From Planctomycetota bacterium (GTDB lineage: Bacteria > Planctomycetota > Phycisphaerae > Phycisphaerales > Phycisphaeraceae): DNA of 64,000 nt. The notes beneath the pieces were generated by a model that worked only from the letters and a program-made list of their open reading frames with translations, was not told the origin of the DNA and made no database searches. Where the stretch lies: positions 1 to 64,000 of the forward strand of contig JAIOPN010000014.1 in NCBI GenBank assembly GCA_021413865.1, in the 5' to 3' direction. Position 1 is the stretch's first letter. The number at the start of each line of letters is the position of its first letter. Below, piece after piece: positions 8,717 to 62,126 of the stretch. A program made the position numbers and the translations under genes.

Positions 8717-8725
8717 CTCTTCAGC

Positions 8726-8757
8726 TGCTCGCGGCTTAGCGTCCCCTCCTTCCTCTT
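8726..8757 (+). repeat. Half-unit of repeat family G
   Basis: GCTCGCGGCTTAGCGTCCC followed by a CT-rich stretch. It recurs directly before valS at 21749-21780 in the same orientation, reversed at 49753-49790, and as a short piece near 9676-9692. At 8726 and at 21749 it ends within a few bases of a start codon. Confidence 0.7.
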
Positions 8758-8759
8758 AT

Positions 8760-9479
8760 ATGTCTCTTCTCCAACAACTAACGCGCGACGGCTACGCCCT
8801 CCTCCCGGAGACCATCGACGCCGCCACGATCGCACGCCTCGCCGCCGCCCTCGAAACCGCACCGTGTAAAACCTCGCGCCGCCGCGACGGCACGGATTAC
8901 GCCGCGCGCAACCTGCTCGCGGATGTTCCCGCGATAACCGAATCGCTCACCGCACCGCGTTTACTCGACGCCATCACGTCGATCCTCGGGCTCGGCGCAT
9001 TCGCAGTGCGCGCGATCCTGTTCGACAAGGTGCAAGGCGCGAACTGGCTTGTCGGGTGGCACCAGGACCGCGCGATCGCGGTGCGGGAGAAGCGGGACAC
9101 ACCGGGGTTCGGCCCCTGGTCCGTCAAGGCCGGCGTGCCCCACGTGCAACCGCCGGCCGACGTGATGGAGCGAATGCTCACTGTCCGGCTGCACCTGGAC
9201 GACACCCCGCCCGACAACGGCCCGCTCCGCGTCTCACCCGGCACGCACCGTCTTGGTTCTATTGATGGCGGCGACATCTCCGATATCGTCGCACGCCACG
9301 GCGAAAAGACGCTCGCCGTCCCTGCCGGCGGTGCGGTGCTGATGCGCCCGCTCCTCCTGCACGCCTCGTCGCCGGCGACCGACCCCAGTCACCGGCGCGT
9401 CATCCACGTCGAACTCGCCGCCTTCGACCTGCCCGGTGATTTAGCATGGCACGACCGCGTCGCGATCACAGCGGGTTGA
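8760..9479 (+). CDS. Phytanoyl-CoA dioxygenase (PhyH) family protein
   Basis: A 239-residue Fe(II)/2-oxoglutarate oxygenase. HxD is H101-Q-D103 in LVGWHQDRAIAV; the distal metal histidine is in RPLLLHASSPATDPSHRRVIHVELA, followed by the 2-oxoglutarate-binding Arg. LTVRLHLDDTPPDNGPLRVSPGTHR is a typical PhyH core strand. It is only distantly similar to the PhyH protein at 5771. The substrate is unknown. No Shine-Dalgarno sequence; repeat family G ends 2 nt before the ATG. Confidence 0.87.
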   Translation: MSLLQQLTRDGYALLPETIDAATIARLAAALETAPCKTSRRRDGTDYAARNLLADVPAITESLTAPRLLDAITSILGLGAFAVRAILFDKVQGANWLVGWHQDRAIAVREKRDTPGFGPWSVKAGVPHVQPPADVMERMLTVRLHLDDTPPDNGPLRVSPGTHRLGSIDGGDISDIVARHGEKTLAVPAGGAVLMRPLLLHASSPATDPSHRRVIHVELAAFDLPGDLAWHDRVAITAG

Positions 9480-14738: not shown

Positions 14739-14824
14739 TCTGGACGAGCCGCGACCGTGAGGGAGCGGTCTTCTTTGGACGCCGCCAAGTAAGAACCGCT
14801 CCCTCACGGTCGCGGCTCGTCCGG
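14739..14824. repeat. REPIN-like element, family B (RAYT-linked)
   Basis: Two inverted REP arms, 14739-14772 and 14790-14824 (core GACGAGCCGCGACCGT plus GAGGGAGCGGT), around a 17-base spacer. The arms match the ends of the transposase insertion in valS (23061, 23723) and REPINs at 28631 and 48167. The rest of the 302-base gap 14711-15012 shows no gene or other structure I can support. Confidence 0.9.
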
Positions 14825-15012
14825 ATAGACCATCATGCACACGGGATTGCGCGGGGGCAATGCGGAAAACTTGGGCGGACTATGTCCACACTTGGTCGGC
14901 GGATGCAAGCCTCGACGCAAATGCGTGATGCGCTAATTCCGGTGCATGGGATCACCGATGTGTGTTGAAGATCAGGTTCTCTTATTACCCGTGACTCCCC
15001 GGCTACGAGTCT

Positions 15013-21712: not shown

Positions 21713-21748
21713 CCCGGCACGGCCCGGCCTTCAAAACAGACGCCCACG

Positions 21749-21780
21749 CCGCTCGCGGCTTAGCGTCCCTCCTCCTCTTT
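21749..21780 (+). repeat. Half-unit of repeat family G before valS
   Basis: Near-identical to 8726-8757, in the same orientation, ending 11 nt before the valS start codon. It may be part of the valS 5' region. Confidence 0.7.
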
Positions 21781-21791
21781 ATTGACCCACC

Positions 21792-24700
21792 ATGCCCACC
21801 GAACTCGCACCCAAATACGACCCCGCCGCCGTCGAGCCCGAGATCGCGCGCCGCTGGACCGACGCCGCCGCCTTCCACGCCGACGCCGCCGACGCCGGTG
21901 ATCCTTATTGCATCGTCATCCCCCCGCCCAACGTCACCGCCGCGCTGCACATGGGCCACGCCCTCACCAACACGCTGCAGGACATCCTCATCCGCTGGCG
22001 CCGCATGGTGGGCGACAACGCCGTCTGGATTCCGGGCACCGACCACGCTGGCATCGCCACGCAGACCGTCGTCGAGAAACGCGTCCTCAAGGAGGAGGGC
22101 AAGAAGCGCACGGATTTCCCGCGCGACGTGTTCGTCCAGAAAATCCAGGCGTGGAAGGACGAGTACGAGCAGACCATCCTCGGCCAGCTCAAGGCGATGG
22201 GCTGCTCCTGCGACTGGGAGCGCACCCGCTTCACGATGGACCCGATCTGCGCCCGGGCCGTGCGCGAGGCGTTCTTCCGCCTCTTCAAGGACGGCCTGAT
22301 CTACCGTGGCAAACGCCTCGTCAACTGGGACCCCGCCACGCAGACCGCCCTGGCGGACGACGAGGTGGACATGAAGGAGGTGGACGGCCACTTCTACTAC
22401 CTGCGTTACCCGCTCACCGCCCCGCTGCCCGACGGGAGCAACTACATCACCGTCGCCACCACCCGCCCCGAGACGATGCTGGGCGACACGGCCGTGGCGA
22501 TCAACCCGAAGGACCCGCGCGCCGCGGCGCTGCGAGGCCGGAAGGTGCTGCTCCCCATCGTCAACCGCGTCATCCCGATCATCGAGGACGACTACGTCGT
22601 GCTGCCCAACCCCGAGAGCGAGGACGCCAAGGCGAAGTTCGCCACCGGCTTCCTCAAGGTGACGCCGGCGCACGACCCCAACGACTACGAGATCGGCCTG
22701 CGGCACAAGCTCCCGGTCATCAACGTGCTCGGACCCGACGGCGCGATCAGCAAAGACCACGGCTGGCCGGAGGTGGAGTGGACACCCGCGTGGCTCGATG
22801 AATCCAACTCCGGCGGGCCCAACGACGCGGGCTCCCTGCTCGGGAAGGACCGGTTCGTGGCGCGGAAACAGATCGTCGCGTTCTTCAGGGAACGTGAGAT
22901 GCTGGAGGCGATGAAGCCGTACAAGCACGCGGTCGGGCATTCGTACCGCTCGCACGTGCCGATCGAGCCGTATCTGAGCGATCAGTGGTACGTGAAGGTG
23001 ACGGACGACAAGATGCGAGGCGCGGCGCTGCGGGCGATGGCGCCGGAGCAGCGATCCGAATCTGGACGAGCCACGACCGTAAGGGAGTGGTCTTCCTCTG
23101 CCTCCTCTTCCACCCATCCTCGCACAGCCTATTTCATCACCTTTGCCTGCTACGGCACATGGCTCCACGGCAACGATCGCGGATCCGTTGATCTCAATCA
23201 CAACATCCCCGGCACCCCACTCTTGCAGGAAGATGATCTGCGTGAGCGCGAAGAGTTCCATCGTCTAAAGCACGCCGCCTTCACCCTCGACGAGGGCAAA
23301 CGTGGCATTGTCGGAAATACGATCGCGGAGGTCTGCGATCACCGTGGCTGGCGATTACTTGAAGGACAGGTCCGAACCAATCACGTTCATGTCGTCGTTG
23401 AAGCCGATGCAACACCCGAACGGGTGATGAATGATTTCAAGACCTACTCCACGCGGCGGTTGCGCGAGGCCTCGCTCGCCGGCCCCGATGATCATGTGTG
23501 GGCGCGGCACGGCAGTACGCGGTATCTCAATGACGAAGTAAGCATTGAATTGGCATGCCAGTATGTTCGCCAGCAAGAAGGCGGCCCACTGAAGAATTCG
23601 GAGATCAAGCCCTCGAATGAGCCGCGTGCGAACGAGCCGCGCGCGTCAGCAAGCGGTTCCGGTCCGACTCAATCCCGGGCAGCGGAGGCAGAACCACTCC
23701 CTCACGGTCGTGGCTCGTCCAGAGTCGCGCCTTCCCTCCGCTTCCACCCCGAGCGCTACGCCAAGACCTTCGAGCAGTGGCACCTCAACATCCGCGACTG
23801 GTGCATCTCCCGCCAGCTCTGGTGGGGGCATCGCATCCCGGTGTGGCATCAACGCATCGCTCTCGATTCCACTAACGCAAATGCCTTCACGTGGGCAGGG
23901 GGCGCTTTGGAACAAGCTGGAATCTGCCAGCGGTTTGTTAGCCCATCAACGGGTGAATCAATCGAAACTTACGCACCCGACGTACGCATGCACGGCCAGG
24001 ACTGGGACGTATACCTCTGCACGCGTAACGCAGATATCCCGTTTGAGAAATGGGAACTCGAACAACGAGGCGGGTGGACCCAGGACCCCGACGTCCTCGA
24101 CACCTGGTTCTCCTCCGCGCTCTGGCCCTTCTCCACGCTCTCGTGGCCGGACAACACGCCCGAGCTCCAGAAATGGAACCCGGGCAACGTCCTCTGCACC
24201 GCACGCGAGATCATCACGCTCTGGGTCTCGCGCATGGTGATGATGAACCTCTACCTCCTCGACCGCCTCCCCTTCACCGACGTGTTCGTGCACGCGATGA
24301 TCCAGGACGGCGAGGGGCGGAAGATGTCGAAATCCCTCGGCAACGGCGTGGACCCGCTGGACATCATCCACTCGCACGGGTCGGACGCGATGCGCTTCAC
24401 CCTCGCGAGCATGACCACCAACACGCAGGACGTCCGCATGCCCGTCATCCGCGACGCGGCCACCGGGCGGAACACCAGCGACAAGTTCGACTACGGCCGG
24501 AACTTCTCCAACAAGCTCTGGAACGCGGTGCGGTTCGCGCTGACGAACCTTCAGACGATGAAGGCGGAGGGGGCGGCGGCGGATGTCGCAACGCCCAGCG
24601 CGGCGCTCACGCTGCCGGACAAGTGGATTCTCTCCCGGCTGGCGCGGGCGGTGAAGGAGGCGGACGCGAACCTGGCTGCGTACGAGTTCGGGGCGTACGC

Positions 24701-25454
24701 CCAGGGGCTGTACGACTTCATCTGGCGCGACCTGTGCGACTGGTACATCGAGGCGGTCAAGCCGAACATCGGCAAGCCCGAGGGTGCGGTGCAGCGGCGC
24801 GTGCTGGCGCTCTGCATCGACGCGGGGCTGCGGCTGCTGCACCCGGCGATGCCGTTCGTCACGGAGAAGTTGTGGGAGAGCCTGAATGATGCGGTGCCGA
24901 TCCGCGAGATCAGCGGCGTGGCGCTGACGCCCAGCTCGCTGCTGATCCATGCGAAGTGGCCGATGGTGAGCGAGACGCTGATCGACACGACGGCGGAGGC
25001 GGAGTTCGAGTTCGTGCAGAAGATCGTCGGGGCGATCCGCGAGGTGCGCACGGCCTACAAGGTCCCGCCGCGGCAGCGCGTCAACTGCTCCGCGAAGTGC
25101 GCCGGCCCGGTCGCCAAGCGGCTGCTGGACGAGACGCACGCAGTCGAGACGTTCGCCAACGTCGAGCTGCACGAGATCGGCCCCAAGGCGGAGAAGCCCG
25201 CCGACGCGGCGGCGACGGTGGTGGGCGACATCGAGCTCTACCTGCACGGCCTGGTGCAGGCGGACGCGGAGAAGGCGCGGCTCACGAAGCGGTCCGAGGA
25301 GCTGTCGCGCAACATCGCGGCGCTCGCGGGGCGGCTGACGAACAAGGCGTACACCGACAAGGCGCCGGCGAACCTGGTGCAGCAGACCCGCGACCAGTTG
25401 TCGGCGGCGGAGCGCGAGCTGGCGACGGTGAACGAGCAGTTGAAGGCGCTGTGA
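21792..25454 (+). CDS. valS: Valyl-tRNA synthetase containing an in-frame RAYT transposase insertion
   Basis: A 1220-codon open frame for the enzyme that charges tRNA-Val. HIGH-type motif HMGH at residues 53-56, the editing (CP1) domain at about 200-390 with TTRPETMLGDTAVAI, the return to the catalytic core at DQWYVKV and DWCISRQLWWGHRIPVW, KMSKS at 844-848, the anticodon-binding domain, and a C-terminal coiled coil (QADAEKARLTKRSEELSRNIAALAG) are all intact. Residues 424-644 do not belong: they are a tyrosine transposase plus REP ends inserted in the variable loop between CP1 and the second core half. Removing them leaves 999 residues, a normal length. The frame has no stop, so a fusion protein is predicted. 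Confidence 0.95.
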   Translation: MPTELAPKYDPAAVEPEIARRWTDAAAFHADAADAGDPYCIVIPPPNVTAALHMGHALTNTLQDILIRWRRMVGDNAVWIPGTDHAGIATQTVVEKRVLKEEGKKRTDFPRDVFVQKIQAWKDEYEQTILGQLKAMGCSCDWERTRFTMDPICARAVREAFFRLFKDGLIYRGKRLVNWDPATQTALADDEVDMKEVDGHFYYLRYPLTAPLPDGSNYITVATTRPETMLGDTAVAINPKDPRAAALRGRKVLLPIVNRVIPIIEDDYVVLPNPESEDAKAKFATGFLKVTPAHDPNDYEIGLRHKLPVINVLGPDGAISKDHGWPEVEWTPAWLDESNSGGPNDAGSLLGKDRFVARKQIVAFFREREMLEAMKPYKHAVGHSYRSHVPIEPYLSDQWYVKVTDDKMRGAALRAMAPEQRSESGRATTVREWSSSASSSTHPRTAYFITFACYGTWLHGNDRGSVDLNHNIPGTPLLQEDDLREREEFHRLKHAAFTLDEGKRGIVGNTIAEVCDHRGWRLLEGQVRTNHVHVVVEADATPERVMNDFKTYSTRRLREASLAGPDDHVWARHGSTRYLNDEVSIELACQYVRQQEGGPLKNSEIKPSNEPRANEPRASASGSGPTQSRAAEAEPLPHGRGSSRVAPSLRFHPERYAKTFEQWHLNIRDWCISRQLWWGHRIPVWHQRIALDSTNANAFTWAGGALEQAGICQRFVSPSTGESIETYAPDVRMHGQDWDVYLCTRNADIPFEKWELEQRGGWTQDPDVLDTWFSSALWPFSTLSWPDNTPELQKWNPGNVLCTAREIITLWVSRMVMMNLYLLDRLPFTDVFVHAMIQDGEGRKMSKSLGNGVDPLDIIHSHGSDAMRFTLASMTTNTQDVRMPVIRDAATGRNTSDKFDYGRNFSNKLWNAVRFALTNLQTMKAEGAAADVATPSAALTLPDKWILSRLARAVKEADANLAAYEFGAYAQGLYDFIWRDLCDWYIEAVKPNIGKPEGAVQRRVLALCIDAGLRLLHPAMPFVTEKLWESLNDAVPIREISGVALTPSSLLIHAKWPMVSETLIDTTAEAEFEFVQKIVGAIREVRTAYKVPPRQRVNCSAKCAGPVAKRLLDETHAVETFANVELHEIGPKAEKPADAAATVVGDIELYLHGLVQADAEKARLTKRSEELSRNIAALAGRLTNKAYTDKAPANLVQQTRDQLSAAERELATVNEQLKAL
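23061..23723 (+). mobile_element. RAYT (REP-associated tyrosine transposase) with flanking REPs, inside valS
   Basis: A 663-bp element (221 codons) bounded by inverted REP arms at 23061-23096 and 23691-23723. It encodes an IS200/IS605-like Y1 transposase: YFITFACYGTWLHGNDRGSVD at the start, the HUH metal motif NHVHVVVEA (H531 and H533 in valS numbering), and the catalytic Tyr helix ACQYVRQQEGG (Y591), followed by a Pro/Ser-rich tail. RAYTs cut and join REP hairpins as single strands. No ATG, GTG or TTG stands in frame between the left REP and the conserved start, so it can be made only as part of ValRS or from a rare codon. No target duplication, as expected for this class. Confidence 0.88.
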
Positions 25455-25456
25455 CA

Positions 25457-25561
25457 GTGGGGCAGGCGTCCCGCCTGTCGCCGGCTTTCCGAGGCCGGGT
25501 CTGGATTCAATAGAGAAGAGAAAAAGCAAAAACCAAGAGGCGGGCGGGACGCCCACCCCAC
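25457..25561. repeat. Palindromic intergenic repeat, family A (long form)
   Basis: Arms 25457-25477 and about 25538-25561 (core GGCAGGCGTCCCGCCTG) enclose a spacer with CCGGC..GCCGG and a TAGAGAAGAG stretch. The spacer is the reverse complement of that in the copy at 29612-29692, so the two copies are inverted relative to each other. It fills the gap between valS and recO. Confidence 0.88.
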
Positions 25562-25571
25562 CGGATTAGAA

Positions 25572-26336
25572 ATGCCGCGCTTCAAAGACGACGCGATCTG
25601 CATCCGGCACCTGGACTGGTCCGAGACCAGCCAGGTCGTCGTGTTGCTCACGCGCGGCCACGGCAAGGTGCGCGGGCTGGCCAAGGGCTCCAAGCGGATG
25701 AGCCCCGGCAGCGTGGCGCGCTACAGCGGCGGGGTCGAGCTGCTCACGCGCGGGCAGATCGTGGGCATCATCAAAACGGGGATGGAACTGGCGACGCTGA
25801 CGGAGTGGGATTTGCAGGAGCCCTACGCGCACCTCCGGAACGACCTGGCGGCGCAGCGGGCCGGGCTTTACGCGGCGGACCTCTGCAACGCGATGCTGGC
25901 TGACCAGGACGAGCACCCCGGGGCGTTCACGGCGATGGATGAGTTTCTTTCCGCACTCGCAGAGCCGGCGAAGCGCGAGCTGTCGCTGCTGGTGTTCCAG
26001 TGGCGGCTGCTGGCGGACGCGGGGTATCGCCCGGAAGTGGAACGTGACGTGGTGACGGCCAAGCCGCTGACCGATCGCGCGTCGTACACCTTCGACGCCC
26101 GCGCGGGCGGGTTGACGGCGACGGTCGAAGGCTCGACGGACGCGGACGACGGCAGCGCGTGGAAGGTGCGGCGCGAAACCGTGGCCGCGCTGCGGGCGGT
26201 GGGTGCGGGGGATGCGGGGGCGATGGGGCATATCACGGATGAATCGGCGCGGCGGGCGAACCGGCTGCTGTGTGTTTATTTGCGGGCGATTTTGGATCGG
26301 GCACTGCCGACGATGGGGCTGGTGTTGGGGGAGTGA
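25572..26336 (+). CDS. recO: DNA repair protein RecO
   Basis: A 254-residue RecO, which anneals single strands and loads RecA with RecF/RecR. The N-terminal OB fold has the family pattern DDAICIRHLDWSETSQVVVLLTRGHGKVRGLAKGSKR, and the helical C-terminal domain follows (LSLLVFQWRLLADAGYRPEVE). The four-cysteine zinc finger found in many RecO proteins is absent: the stretch after GYRPEVERDVVTAKPL has no Cys. It starts 118 bases after valS, across a palindromic repeat. Confidence 0.92.
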   Translation: MPRFKDDAICIRHLDWSETSQVVVLLTRGHGKVRGLAKGSKRMSPGSVARYSGGVELLTRGQIVGIIKTGMELATLTEWDLQEPYAHLRNDLAAQRAGLYAADLCNAMLADQDEHPGAFTAMDEFLSALAEPAKRELSLLVFQWRLLADAGYRPEVERDVVTAKPLTDRASYTFDARAGGLTATVEGSTDADDGSAWKVRRETVAALRAVGAGDAGAMGHITDESARRANRLLCVYLRAILDRALPTMGLVLGE

Positions 26337-28627: not shown

Positions 28628-28630
28628 GCC

Positions 28631-28716
28631 CGGACGAGCCGCGACCGTGAGGGAGCGGTCTTCTCCGGAAATCACACCGTCGCGGAACCACTCCCTCACG
28701 GTCGTGGCTCGTCCGG
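28631..28716. repeat. REPIN-like element, family B (RAYT-linked)
   Basis: Inverted REP arms 28631-28664 and 28685-28716. The right arm carries GTCGTGGCTCGTCC, the same variant as in the right end of the valS insertion. It separates the DUF2721 and SDR genes. Confidence 0.9.
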
Positions 28717-28778
28717 ATTGCACCGCGATTCCCCGGGGTTTGCTATGCTACGCCTCCCATTTGCAAGGAGTCGGAGGC

Positions 28779-29597: not shown

Positions 29598-29611
29598 TCT
29601 GGTTTTGCCCG

Positions 29612-29692
29612 GTGGGGTGGGCGTCCCGCCCGCCTCTTCCTCTTTAGAATCCGGCCTGGGAAGGCCGGCGGCAGGCGGGACGCCTGCCCCAC
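29612..29692. repeat. Palindromic intergenic repeat, family A (long form)
   Basis: Arms 29612-29634 (GGTGGGCGTCCCGCCC variant) and 29671-29692 (GGCAGGCGGGACGCCTGCC), with the spacer inverted relative to 25457-25561. It lies 14 bases before the nagA-like start codon. Confidence 0.85.
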
Positions 29693-29705
29693 CAGATATC
29701 TACCC

Positions 29706-47360: not shown

Positions 47361-48188
47361 ATGACCGCACCCCGCAAGCCCGCCGACAGGCACCCGAAAA
47401 AGCCCCACGCCGCCACCACCGACTGGTCCGCCGTCGCGGCGTGGTACGACAACCTCGTGGGCGAGGAGGGCAGCGAGTACCAGCGCGAGGTCGTGCTGCC
47501 GGGCGTGCTGCGGCTGCTGGCCTGCCGTGCGGGGGAGCGCGTGCTGGACGTCGCCTGCGGGCAGGGCGTGCTCTGCCGGCTGCTGCACGCGGCGGGGGTG
47601 AAGGTCACAGGCGTGGACGCGGCCGAGCCGTTGATCAAGCTGGCCCGCGAGCGCAGCGACAAGGCGGTGCGATATTCCGTCGGCGATGCGCGATCGCTCG
47701 GTGCCCTGCCCGCCCTGACGCCCGGTTTCGATGCCGCCGCCTGCGTGCTGGCGATCCAGAACATCGACCCGATGAAGCCGGTCTTCGAGGGCGTGGCGAA
47801 ACTCCTACGGCCCGGAGGGCGGTTCGTGATGGCGATGATGCACCCCTGCTTCCGCGGGCCCAAGCAGACGCACTGGGGCTGGGACGAGAGCAAGGGTGTG
47901 CAGTACCGCCGCGTGGACCGCTACCTGCTGCCGCGCCGCGAGCCGATCGTCACCCACCCGGGCAAGGACCCGACGGGCTACACCTGGACGTTCCACCGCC
48001 CGGTGCAGTCGTACGCGGCCGCGCTGGGTGAGTCGGGCCTGCTCATCGACCGCATCGAGGAGTGGACGAGCCACAAGGTAAGCACAAGCGGCCCGCGCGC
48101 CGGGGCGGAGAACCGGACGCGGAAAGAGATACCGATGTTCATGGCGATACGGGCGGTGAAGGCGAGTTTGGACGAGCCGCGACCGTAA
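47361..48188 (+). CDS. Class I SAM-dependent methyltransferase
   Basis: A 275-residue methyltransferase with the UbiE/COQ5-type fold: motif I ERVLDVACGQGVLCRLL (about 58-74), VTGVDAAEPLIKLAR, RYSVGDARSL, and RPGGRFVMAMMHPCF. The substrate is unknown. The last six codons, encoding DEPRP and the TAA stop, lie within a REP arm, so the natural C-terminus was replaced by repeat insertion. TACAAT lies six nt before ATG 47361; no ribosome-binding site. Confidence 0.88.
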   Translation: MTAPRKPADRHPKKPHAATTDWSAVAAWYDNLVGEEGSEYQREVVLPGVLRLLACRAGERVLDVACGQGVLCRLLHAAGVKVTGVDAAEPLIKLARERSDKAVRYSVGDARSLGALPALTPGFDAAACVLAIQNIDPMKPVFEGVAKLLRPGGRFVMAMMHPCFRGPKQTHWGWDESKGVQYRRVDRYLLPRREPIVTHPGKDPTGYTWTFHRPVQSYAAALGESGLLIDRIEEWTSHKVSTSGPRAGAENRTRKEIPMFMAIRAVKASLDEPRP

Positions 48189-48255
48189 GGGAGCGGTTCT
48201 GTGACGACCGTAGTTGCCGGAAAGGCCGCTCCCTTACGGTCGCGGCTCGTCCAGA
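48167..48255. repeat. REPIN-like element, family B (RAYT-linked)
   Basis: Arms 48167-48200 and 48222-48255 (core GACGAGCCGCGACCGTAAGG). The T-to-A variant CCGTAAGG is shared with the left end of the valS insertion. The left arm overlaps the 3' end of the methyltransferase gene and supplies its stop codon. Confidence 0.9.
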
Positions 48256-49770: not shown

Positions 49771-49818
49771 AAGCCGCGAGCGGCCGGCCGCTCGCGGCTT
49801 TGCGATCTTCCTTTTTTT
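49771..49818. terminator. Terminator between the SMP-30 gene and recN (repeat family G palindrome)
   Basis: A perfect 15-bp inverted repeat, 49771-49785 with 49786-49800 (AAGCCGCGAGCGGCC and its complement), then GCGATCTTCC and seven T's. The arms are family G units joined head to head. Confidence 0.75.
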
Positions 49819-49820
49819 GA

Positions 49821-51632
49821 TCACCCCACCGACGCGAGCATTTCCCCGACCTGCTTCCGCGTCGTGGCCGTCACCGACTTGCCCGCGAGCATCTCGGCCA
49901 GCTCCTCGATCCGCGCGTCCCCCTCCAGGAGCGTCACCGTGGTGCGCGTCTGCTTCTCCTTGCCTTTGCCCTCGACGCTCTTGGCGATGCGCAGGTGGCG
50001 ATCGGCGTAGGCGGCGATCTGCGGCAGGTGGGTGATGCAGATGACCTGCTGGCCCGGCGCGGGGGACGCGGCGGTTTTCGTGGATGCACCCCCGTTGGAT
50101 CGCTTGCCCTTCGTGCCGGTTTTTTCGCCCTGCGCCGGCGTGGAGGCGAGGCGTCGCAGCTTGTCGCCGATGACGGTGCCCATCCGGCCGCCGATGTTGG
50201 CGTCGATCTCGTCGAAGACCAGCACGCTGATGCGGTCGCTCTGGGCGAGGATGGATTTGAGGGCGAGCATGATGCGGGACATCTCACCGCCCGAGGCGAT
50301 CTTGCGGAGCGGCCGCGCGGGCTGGCCGGGGTTGGTGCGCACCAGCATCTCGACAGTCTCCAGCCCGGACGCCGACGCGCCGGCCCCCTCCTCCGTGACC
50401 ACCACGGGGACGAACTCGACCTCAAAGCCCGCTTCCGTCATGCCCAGCTCGCGCATCTGCGCCTCAACCAGCGGCCGGAGCTTCGCCGCCGCGGCACGCC
50501 TCGCCTTCGATAATTCCGCGCCGGCCTTTTCCATCTCGGCCCGCGCCGCGGCGATGTCTATCTCAATACGGTCGGAGCTCTCGTCCTCCCCCCGCAACTC
50601 CGCGATCTGCCCGCCCAGCTCGGCGCGGAAGGCGAGCAGCTTGGCGGTCAGGTCGTCGCCGACGGGCAGGTGCGAGGCGTACTTGGAGGCGAGGCGGTTG
50701 AGCGTGTTGAGCCGATCGTTGATCTCGACGAGTTCGGCGGGGTCAAGGTCCACCTTCTCGACGTAACGCCCCAGCTCAAACGCGGCGTCCTGCAACACGG
50801 CGGTGCCGTTTTTCACCTGGTCGCAGATCGCCGCCAGCGCGGGGTCGAGCTCAGCCAACCCGCCGAGGATGTGGACGATCATCTGCAGCCGTTCGACGAC
50901 CGAACCGTCGCTGTCGTAGAGCGCGGTCTGCGCCTGGCCCGCGTCGCGTTTCACCTTCTCCAGGTTCGACAGCAGCGCGTTGCGCTGCCGCAGCTCCTCG
51001 AACTCCCCCTCCACCGGGCGGGCCTCGTCGATCTCGTTGGCCTGGAACTCGTAGAGATCGAGCTGCTGGCGGCGGAGCCGGCTGGAGGATTTGAGTTCGT
51101 CGTGCCGGCGGACCAGGTCGCGCAGCCGGCCGTGGGCGTCGGCGAAGCGCCCGCGCACGTCGGTGCAGCGGGCGAAGGCGTCGAGGATGGAGAGCTGGTT
51201 CGCGGGCTTGAGGAGGTACTGGTGGTCGTGTTGGCCGTGGATGTCGACGAGCAATTCGCCGATGGCGCGGACCATGGGCGAGGTGGCGGGCCGGCCGTTG
51301 ACGTTCACGCTGGACCGTCCGGAGGCGAGGTAGCGGCGGGTGATGAGCAGTTGCTCGCCGGGGGCGAAGGCGTCGTCGAGGATGGCGGCGACGGCGGCCG
51401 CGGCGGCGGGGTCGTGCACCTCGAAGAGGCCGGCGATGCGGGCCTCGTCCGCGCCGGGGCGAATCATGTCCGCCGCCCCGCCGCTCCTGAGGCCCAGCAG
51501 GACTTCAAACGCGCCGAGCACGAGGCTCTTGCCCGCGCCGGTTTGGCCGGTGAAGCAGTTGAGGCCCGGCCCGAGCTCGACGGTGACGTCCTCGATGACG
51601 GCCAGGTTGGAGATGTGCAGTTCGCGGAGCAC
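49821..51632 (-). CDS. recN: DNA repair protein RecN
   Basis: A 603-residue SMC-like ATPase for double-strand break repair. Walker A FTGQTGAGKS (28-37), a coiled coil between about 155 and 370, the ABC signature LRKIASGGEMSRIMLALK (about 442-459), Walker B VLVFDEIDANIGG, and the His switch CITHLPQIAAYADRHLRI. An insert of about 30 residues rich in Lys/Thr/Gly (PAQGEKTGTKGKRSNGGASTK) follows Walker B, longer than in E. coli RecN. The start ATG 51632 gives the family MLRELHISNLAVIEDV. Confidence 0.96.
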   Translation of the reverse strand: MLRELHISNLAVIEDVTVELGPGLNCFTGQTGAGKSLVLGAFEVLLGLRSGGAADMIRPGADEARIAGLFEVHDPAAAAAVAAILDDAFAPGEQLLITRRYLASGRSSVNVNGRPATSPMVRAIGELLVDIHGQHDHQYLLKPANQLSILDAFARCTDVRGRFADAHGRLRDLVRRHDELKSSSRLRRQQLDLYEFQANEIDEARPVEGEFEELRQRNALLSNLEKVKRDAGQAQTALYDSDGSVVERLQMIVHILGGLAELDPALAAICDQVKNGTAVLQDAAFELGRYVEKVDLDPAELVEINDRLNTLNRLASKYASHLPVGDDLTAKLLAFRAELGGQIAELRGEDESSDRIEIDIAAARAEMEKAGAELSKARRAAAAKLRPLVEAQMRELGMTEAGFEVEFVPVVVTEEGAGASASGLETVEMLVRTNPGQPARPLRKIASGGEMSRIMLALKSILAQSDRISVLVFDEIDANIGGRMGTVIGDKLRRLASTPAQGEKTGTKGKRSNGGASTKTAASPAPGQQVICITHLPQIAAYADRHLRIAKSVEGKGKEKQTRTTVTLLEGDARIEELAEMLAGKSVTATTRKQVGEMLASVG

Positions 51633-54899: not shown

Positions 54900-54908
54900 C
54901 GGTTCCGT

Positions 54909-55024
54909 CCCATAGCCCCCGGCTCCGCGGGGGCGGGTTCTTCGTTGGATGTCCGCACGCGCGGAAATTTTGCGGTGTTCGGTGATCGCCCAAGAACCCC
55001 CCCCGCAGAGCCGGGGGCTATGGG
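54909..55024. repeat. Palindromic intergenic repeat, family D
   Basis: Arms CCATAGCCCCCGGCTC.. and its complement end the element; inside, GGGTTCTT pairs with AAGAACCC. A second copy lies at 62011-62126, with the shared central ATTTTGCG/GTTTTGCG segment. Confidence 0.88.
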
Positions 55025-55075
55025 ATGGAGCGGCGTGAACCCATTGCGATGCCCGGATGTGATTACAATCCCCCC

Positions 55076-62010: not shown

Positions 62011-62126
62011 CCCATAGCTAGCCCCCGGCTCCGCCGGGGGGGGTTCGTTGGATCACCACGCGCGCGGGAGTTTTGCGATATCCCATGATCGTACAAGAAC
62101 CCCCCGGCGGAGCCGGGGGCTATGGG
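62011..62126. repeat. Palindromic intergenic repeat, family D
   Basis: Second copy of the element at 54909, with CCATAGCTAGCCCCCGGCTC at the left, a four-base insertion relative to the first copy, and GGAGCCGGGGGCTATGG at the right. It separates convergent genes. Confidence 0.88.

Follow-up and report, generated by a model that had tools for sequence, protein, structure and literature searches.

A RAYT transposase as an in-frame domain of valine--tRNA ligase and its REPIN family in Phycisphaerae

In the RAYT/REPIN systems of Pseudomonas and enterobacteria, also called REPtrons, an HUH-Y1 transposase lies between REP arms and inverted REP pairs are dispersed over the genome, an arrangement which we also found in a planctomycete contig (JAIOPN010000014.1, of which the stretch of 64,000 nucleotides analysed here is called the window). 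However, the known RAYTs are free-standing, whereas the RAYT of the window lacks its own start codon and belongs, as a domain, to an essential enzyme, valine--tRNA ligase (ValS). Class 3 of the TnpA_Y1 transposases (PMC6006769) shares with it the NHVH, W[TA] and YV...Q signatures, a length of about 155 aa and gene-flanking high-copy hairpins, and the distribution of this class over Planctomycetes, Acidobacteria and Proteobacteria fits as well, but its members were described solely as separate genes. Their 5' CnGA foot is not seen as such at the window hairpins, where the bases read CGAG. The same survey had left unexpectedly long proteins out, taking them for fused genes or for errors of annotation (PMC6006769).

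As far as the repeats are concerned, CGTC-tagged REPs (PMC3733652) are alike in their CTCGTC arm ends, in a hairpin with an 8-position stem and a 4-nt loop and in their mostly head-to-head dimers, but they are reportedly without a dedicated transposase and with A-T first stem pairs, whereas the window does have a transposase and a stem rich in G+C. Mobile repeats which are in frame in functional proteins, tRNA synthetases included, are known as Rickettsia palindromic elements and intragenic REPs (PMC3733652); these, however, are short repeats (20–80 aa) with no transposase, while the window insert comprises a whole one. Inteins with homing endonucleases are similar in being in-frame selfish DNA enzymes in conserved essential proteins, with recurrent sites and a patchy distribution. 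They differ from the embedded RAYTs in their splicing domain, which we did not find in the latter, in their enzyme, which is a homing endonuclease and not an HUH transposase, and in their location in active-site motifs instead of variable loops. In the open-access literature searched, we found no account of a tRNA synthetase or a PurH with an in-frame transposase.

The RAYT inside valS and its REPIN family

A sequence-only reading of the window had described a RAYT insertion with repeats at both ends. The arms do flank the RAYT (Table 1), but this reading had missed that the sole ValS contains the RAYT as a domain in its frame and that the arrangement is recurrent. The ORF contains the Pfam domains tRNA-synt_1, Anticodon_1 and Val_tRNA-synt_C plus Y1_Tnp at aa 507–595, the valS frame runs through the RAYT free of stop codons, and the HIGH-type (HMGH) and KMSKS motifs of the synthetase are both intact. 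The insert of 220 aa corresponds to a position between residues 363 and 379 of the Thermus thermophilus ValRS (1gax), in a variable loop which follows the editing domain and precedes the catalytic domain's ISRQLWWGH segment. We searched the genome for a second ValS and found none, as the next match covers part of the query with 35% identity and probably represents another class I synthetase.

Table 1: Features of the valS locus and of the REPINs in the window.
Feature	Position	Strand	Remark
ValS (valine--tRNA ligase) with in-frame RAYT, single ORF of 1220 aa	21792-25454	+	NCBIfam 1018.9 bits (cut-off 704)
ValS N-terminal part to loop (..KVTDDKMRGAALRAMAPEQRSE)	21792-23060	+	aligns to T. thermophilus ValRS 1gax residues 3-363
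Left REP arm, in-frame reading GRATTVREW	23061-23094	+	
RAYT core domain, HUH His531/His533 and Tyr591 (fusion numbering), start codon absent from the 20 codons before it	23106-23582	+	
Right REP arm, + strand in-frame reading LPHGRGSS	23693-23723	-	
ValS C-terminal part (LRFHPERYAKTF..ISRQLWWGH..KMSKS..anticodon and tRNA-binding arm)	23724-25454	+	aligns to 1gax from residue 379
REPIN	14739-14825	.	intergenic or gene edge
REPIN, one CCGC/GCGG arm and one CCAC/GTGG arm	28630-28717	.	
REPIN at 3' end of methyltransferase ORF	48167-48255	.	supplies stop codon of the ORF

With the Y1_Tnp profile (PF01797) the RAYT scores 36.7 bits against a cut-off of 23, and it possesses the HUH motif and the catalytic tyrosine of the TnpA_Y1/RAYT superfamily. 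The AlphaFold2 model of the domain (pLDDT 85) gave the TnpA proteins of IS200/IS608/ISDra2 (2f4f, 2vih) and TnpA_REP (4er8) as best PDB matches. Using NCBIfam NF047646 (REP_Tyr_transpos) a score of 26.7 bits was obtained, which is below the equivalog cut-off of 80 that is passed by the canonical ValS RAYTs of two relatives (G040 and G052, 91.6 and 94.2 bits). The RAYT of the window matches TnpA_Y1 class 3 in the NHVH, W[TA] and Y....Q motifs and in its length of about 155 aa, this assignment being a motif comparison only. A model of the full-length fusion was poor (pLDDT 63.7 with 15 sequences) and unusable as a guide to the domain arrangement.

The dispersed copies at 14739, 28631 and 48167 had been read as inverted REP pairs matching the RAYT ends, and indeed the arm GACGAGCC[G/A]CGACCGTNAGGGAG[C/T]GG is common to all three REPINs and to both ends around the RAYT, with both of the variant sets named before (GCCGCG and GCCACG) being present. 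The genome-wide search for the 16-mer which had been suggested was run on 4.37 Mb in 67 contigs and resulted in 89 matches with at most one mismatch versus 3 for the reversed control; the 26-mer arm pattern with at most three mismatches gave 96 matches versus 0. By inspection of the match list, 88 of these 96 arms form 44 inverted pairs of a single orientation, namely 43 REPINs with an outer span of mostly about 78–90 bp and one 655-bp pair which encloses the RAYT, and the remaining 8 arms are single. In 94 of 96 arms the variant G/A and C/T positions of the stem covary, giving CCGC/GCGG or CCAC/GTGG, a pattern in favour of a hairpin within each arm. The fold can be written as CCGC-GA-CC-GTNA-GG-GA-GCGG with the freely variable N in the loop, corresponding to a G+C-rich stem of 8 positions and a loop of 4 nt. 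The arms end in CTCGTC, and the foot before CCGC at the flanking hairpins reads GACGAG. The elements show what is expected of REPINs: two inverted arms that give a long hairpin, multiple copies and arms in common with a RAYT.

No other close RAYT was found in the window genome. When we compared REP copy numbers in 61 genomes, at least 16 arms were present in all seven genomes with a RAYT in ValS (16–185 arms each) and at least 10 arms in 8 of the 54 others (Fisher p 1.5e-5). The link of the REPINs to this transposase, as its putative non-autonomous partners, is well supported by the shared arms, by the lack of another close RAYT and by this association, but part of the evidence speaks against it: abundant identical REPs in relatives with no such RAYT had been named as the finding that would do so, and four genomes (G011, G012, G052 and G053) do have 66–101 REPs (at most two mismatches) and no detectable RAYT of this type. 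The link is therefore statistical and not exclusive, and REPs may outlast their transposase.

Recurrence and history of embedded RAYTs

A first search in 61 relatives gave seven genomes with a RAYT in frame in ValS, and wider searches showed that at least 18 lineages of Phycisphaerae have RAYTs of the class 3 type in one and the same loop of ValS. An unrelated canonical RAYT with other flanking repeats is present at this loop in G040 and G052, in L228, L229 and L235 further RAYT subgroups lie roughly twelve residues upstream of it, and in L239 a different ValS loop carries the RAYT. Within the genus g37 one and the same loop was found with class-3-type RAYTs (two, 49% identical), with a canonical RAYT (one) and empty (one). 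Nearly all of the class-3-type RAYTs at the common ValS loop have REP-derived peptides on their flanks, for example TSRDREGA and PLPHGRGS, whose frames differ, and the REP arm is open in five of the six reading frames. Related RAYTs are also in frame in AlaS (at least two sites), LeuS and PurH (five genomes, one site) as well as in defence-type DNA methyltransferases (DUF1156, ISP and PglX-like). From the 397 Phycisphaerae genomes 133 have a RAYT match and about 35 have an embedded RAYT, a figure which is a tally of RAYT matches with host-gene checks; about 35 of 133 RAYT-bearing genomes in this class thus compare with 1 of 36 in the rest of the phylum (Fisher p 0.001). The embedding of RAYTs in host genes is real and recurrent.

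We looked for plasmid carriage and found none. Around standalone RAYTs, the long ORFs in G229, G416:C19, G203:C75 and L077 have the look of spurious frames and were discarded. The canonical ValS RAYTs of L182 and L175 are flanked by GTGVSPV- and GRDARAT-type repeat peptides, which represent a REP family other than that of the window. The RAYTs embedded in ValS of L239 (1681-6423) and in PurH of L232 (2017-4581) are bordered by REP-encoded peptides in tandem (PLPHGRGSE, SSEGRG), and a single AlaS ORF (L055:203-5260) has two in-frame RAYTs at different sites.

On the ValS tree the presence of the RAYT requires 14 changes, at least 11 of them forced by well supported branches, and the clustering of presence is no greater than with shuffled labels. 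No correlation was found between the identities of ValS and RAYT (Mantel r -0.06, p 0.66), and the AU test (p 0.0056) rejects a clade of the RAYTs of family f1. Taken together, the presence changes, the uncorrelated identities and the rejected clade point to repeated gain, exchange and loss at a single ValS loop. One ancient and vertically inherited insertion is unsupported by the Mantel test, the AU test and the shuffled-label clustering. In a tree of 97 rows the ValS-resident RAYTs form a single clade with a good support of 97/81 and one standalone copy inside; a smaller tree does not support this clade well (24% of the bootstraps). REP-like remnants were found in the ValS loops of G007 and G057, which are empty.

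How embedded RAYTs may persist

We consider it likely that the RAYT is produced as a domain of the essential ValS, mobilises the REPINs and is shielded from loss, since any loss that breaks the frame kills the host gene. The RAYT would be translated solely as part of the synthetase, its folded domain would bind and nick single-stranded REP hairpins and by this spread the REPINs, and ValS would stay functional despite the insert. The in-frame seat in an essential gene would both supply expression and guard the transposase, because a frameshift, a nonsense mutation or a sloppy deletion would kill the host gene, and the loss of the RAYT would require an in-frame deletion with REP remnants left behind. 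We infer this protection from the distribution of the RAYTs; against it stands that most standalone relatives are located outside genes. A persistence strategy is the best-supported reading of the embedding, although likewise an inference.

With less confidence, but still leaning towards it, we suggest an undescribed lifestyle of HUH enzymes, in which catalytically intact RAYTs would be maintained in frame, as domains that do not splice, in essential enzymes (ValS, AlaS, LeuS and PurH) and in defence methyltransferases. They would fill a niche like that of inteins and would pass from host to host at fixed loops, with host translation driving the spread of the REPINs. If borne out, this would clearly exemplify an essential bacterial enzyme with a transposase as a non-spliced domain, and it offers a testable answer to the long persistence of single-copy RAYTs and REPIN populations. 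The fusions would also be natural examples of 220-aa domain insertions which are tolerated by tRNA synthetases, and they suggest that the length filters of earlier surveys hid such proteins.

Alternatively, the RAYT might be a neutral passenger which inserts anywhere, survives where it is in frame in tolerant loops of essential genes and is slowly lost, with no benefit being involved. The loop does accept REP-only inserts and varies in length among relatives, and the patchy presence with its forced changes on the ValS tree would be in line with such a passenger as well. However, we regard this as unlikely: at about 50% identity the HUH histidines are intact in all 41 embedded RAYTs examined and the catalytic tyrosine in 40 of them (the remaining copy is cut by a contig end), different RAYT lineages repeatedly strike the same few enzymes and loops, and there is a strong enrichment in one class.

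A shade less probable again is a release of the RAYT from ValS during or after translation via protein splicing, proteolysis or an internal start, which would spare the synthetase the 220-aa insert and yield a small free transposase. Neither an intein/Hint splicing domain in Pfam and NCBIfam scans of the fusions nor conserved splice residues at the insert junctions were found, and for this lack an intein or spliced element was rejected. An ATG within 20 codons upstream, as needed for an internal start, is present in 4 of the 41 embedded RAYTs but absent in the other 37, the one in the window among them, compared to 42 with such an ATG out of 56 standalone RAYTs (p 6e-11).

Chimeric contigs or a dead valS might be suspected, as most genome records are MAGs and REP arms are repeats prone to misassembly, but such an artefact is very improbable in view of identical junctions in independent studies, of intact ValS motifs and of the absence of a second ValS in 17 of 17 ValS-fused genomes checked. 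Moreover, the ValS-fused genome G204 is a single contig with 99% completeness (G052 consists of two contigs), and misassembly is therefore unlikely as a general explanation. Finally, the common arms and the RAYT fold would also suit an ordinary RAYT/REPIN system with a fusion incidental to one genome, but hardly anything is left of this idea, as the at least 18 lineages with the same ValS loop occupied and five or more other host gene families refute a one-genome incident.

Further repeats in the window

Besides the REPINs, a second palindromic repeat family (GTGGGGCAGGCGTCCCGCCTGCC) is present at 1754-1843, 25455-25574 and 29609-29705, with one of its copies starting one base past the valS stop codon. 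The element GC[CT]GCTCGCGGCTT[AT]GCG.. occurs in three copies (8724-8767, 21748-21791 and 49787-49830), which may represent a shared leader element since the copy at 21748 ends immediately upstream of the valS start. At 54904-55029 and 62019-62122 a 62-nt repeat is enclosed by the CCCCCGGCTCCGC-type arms of two long hairpins.
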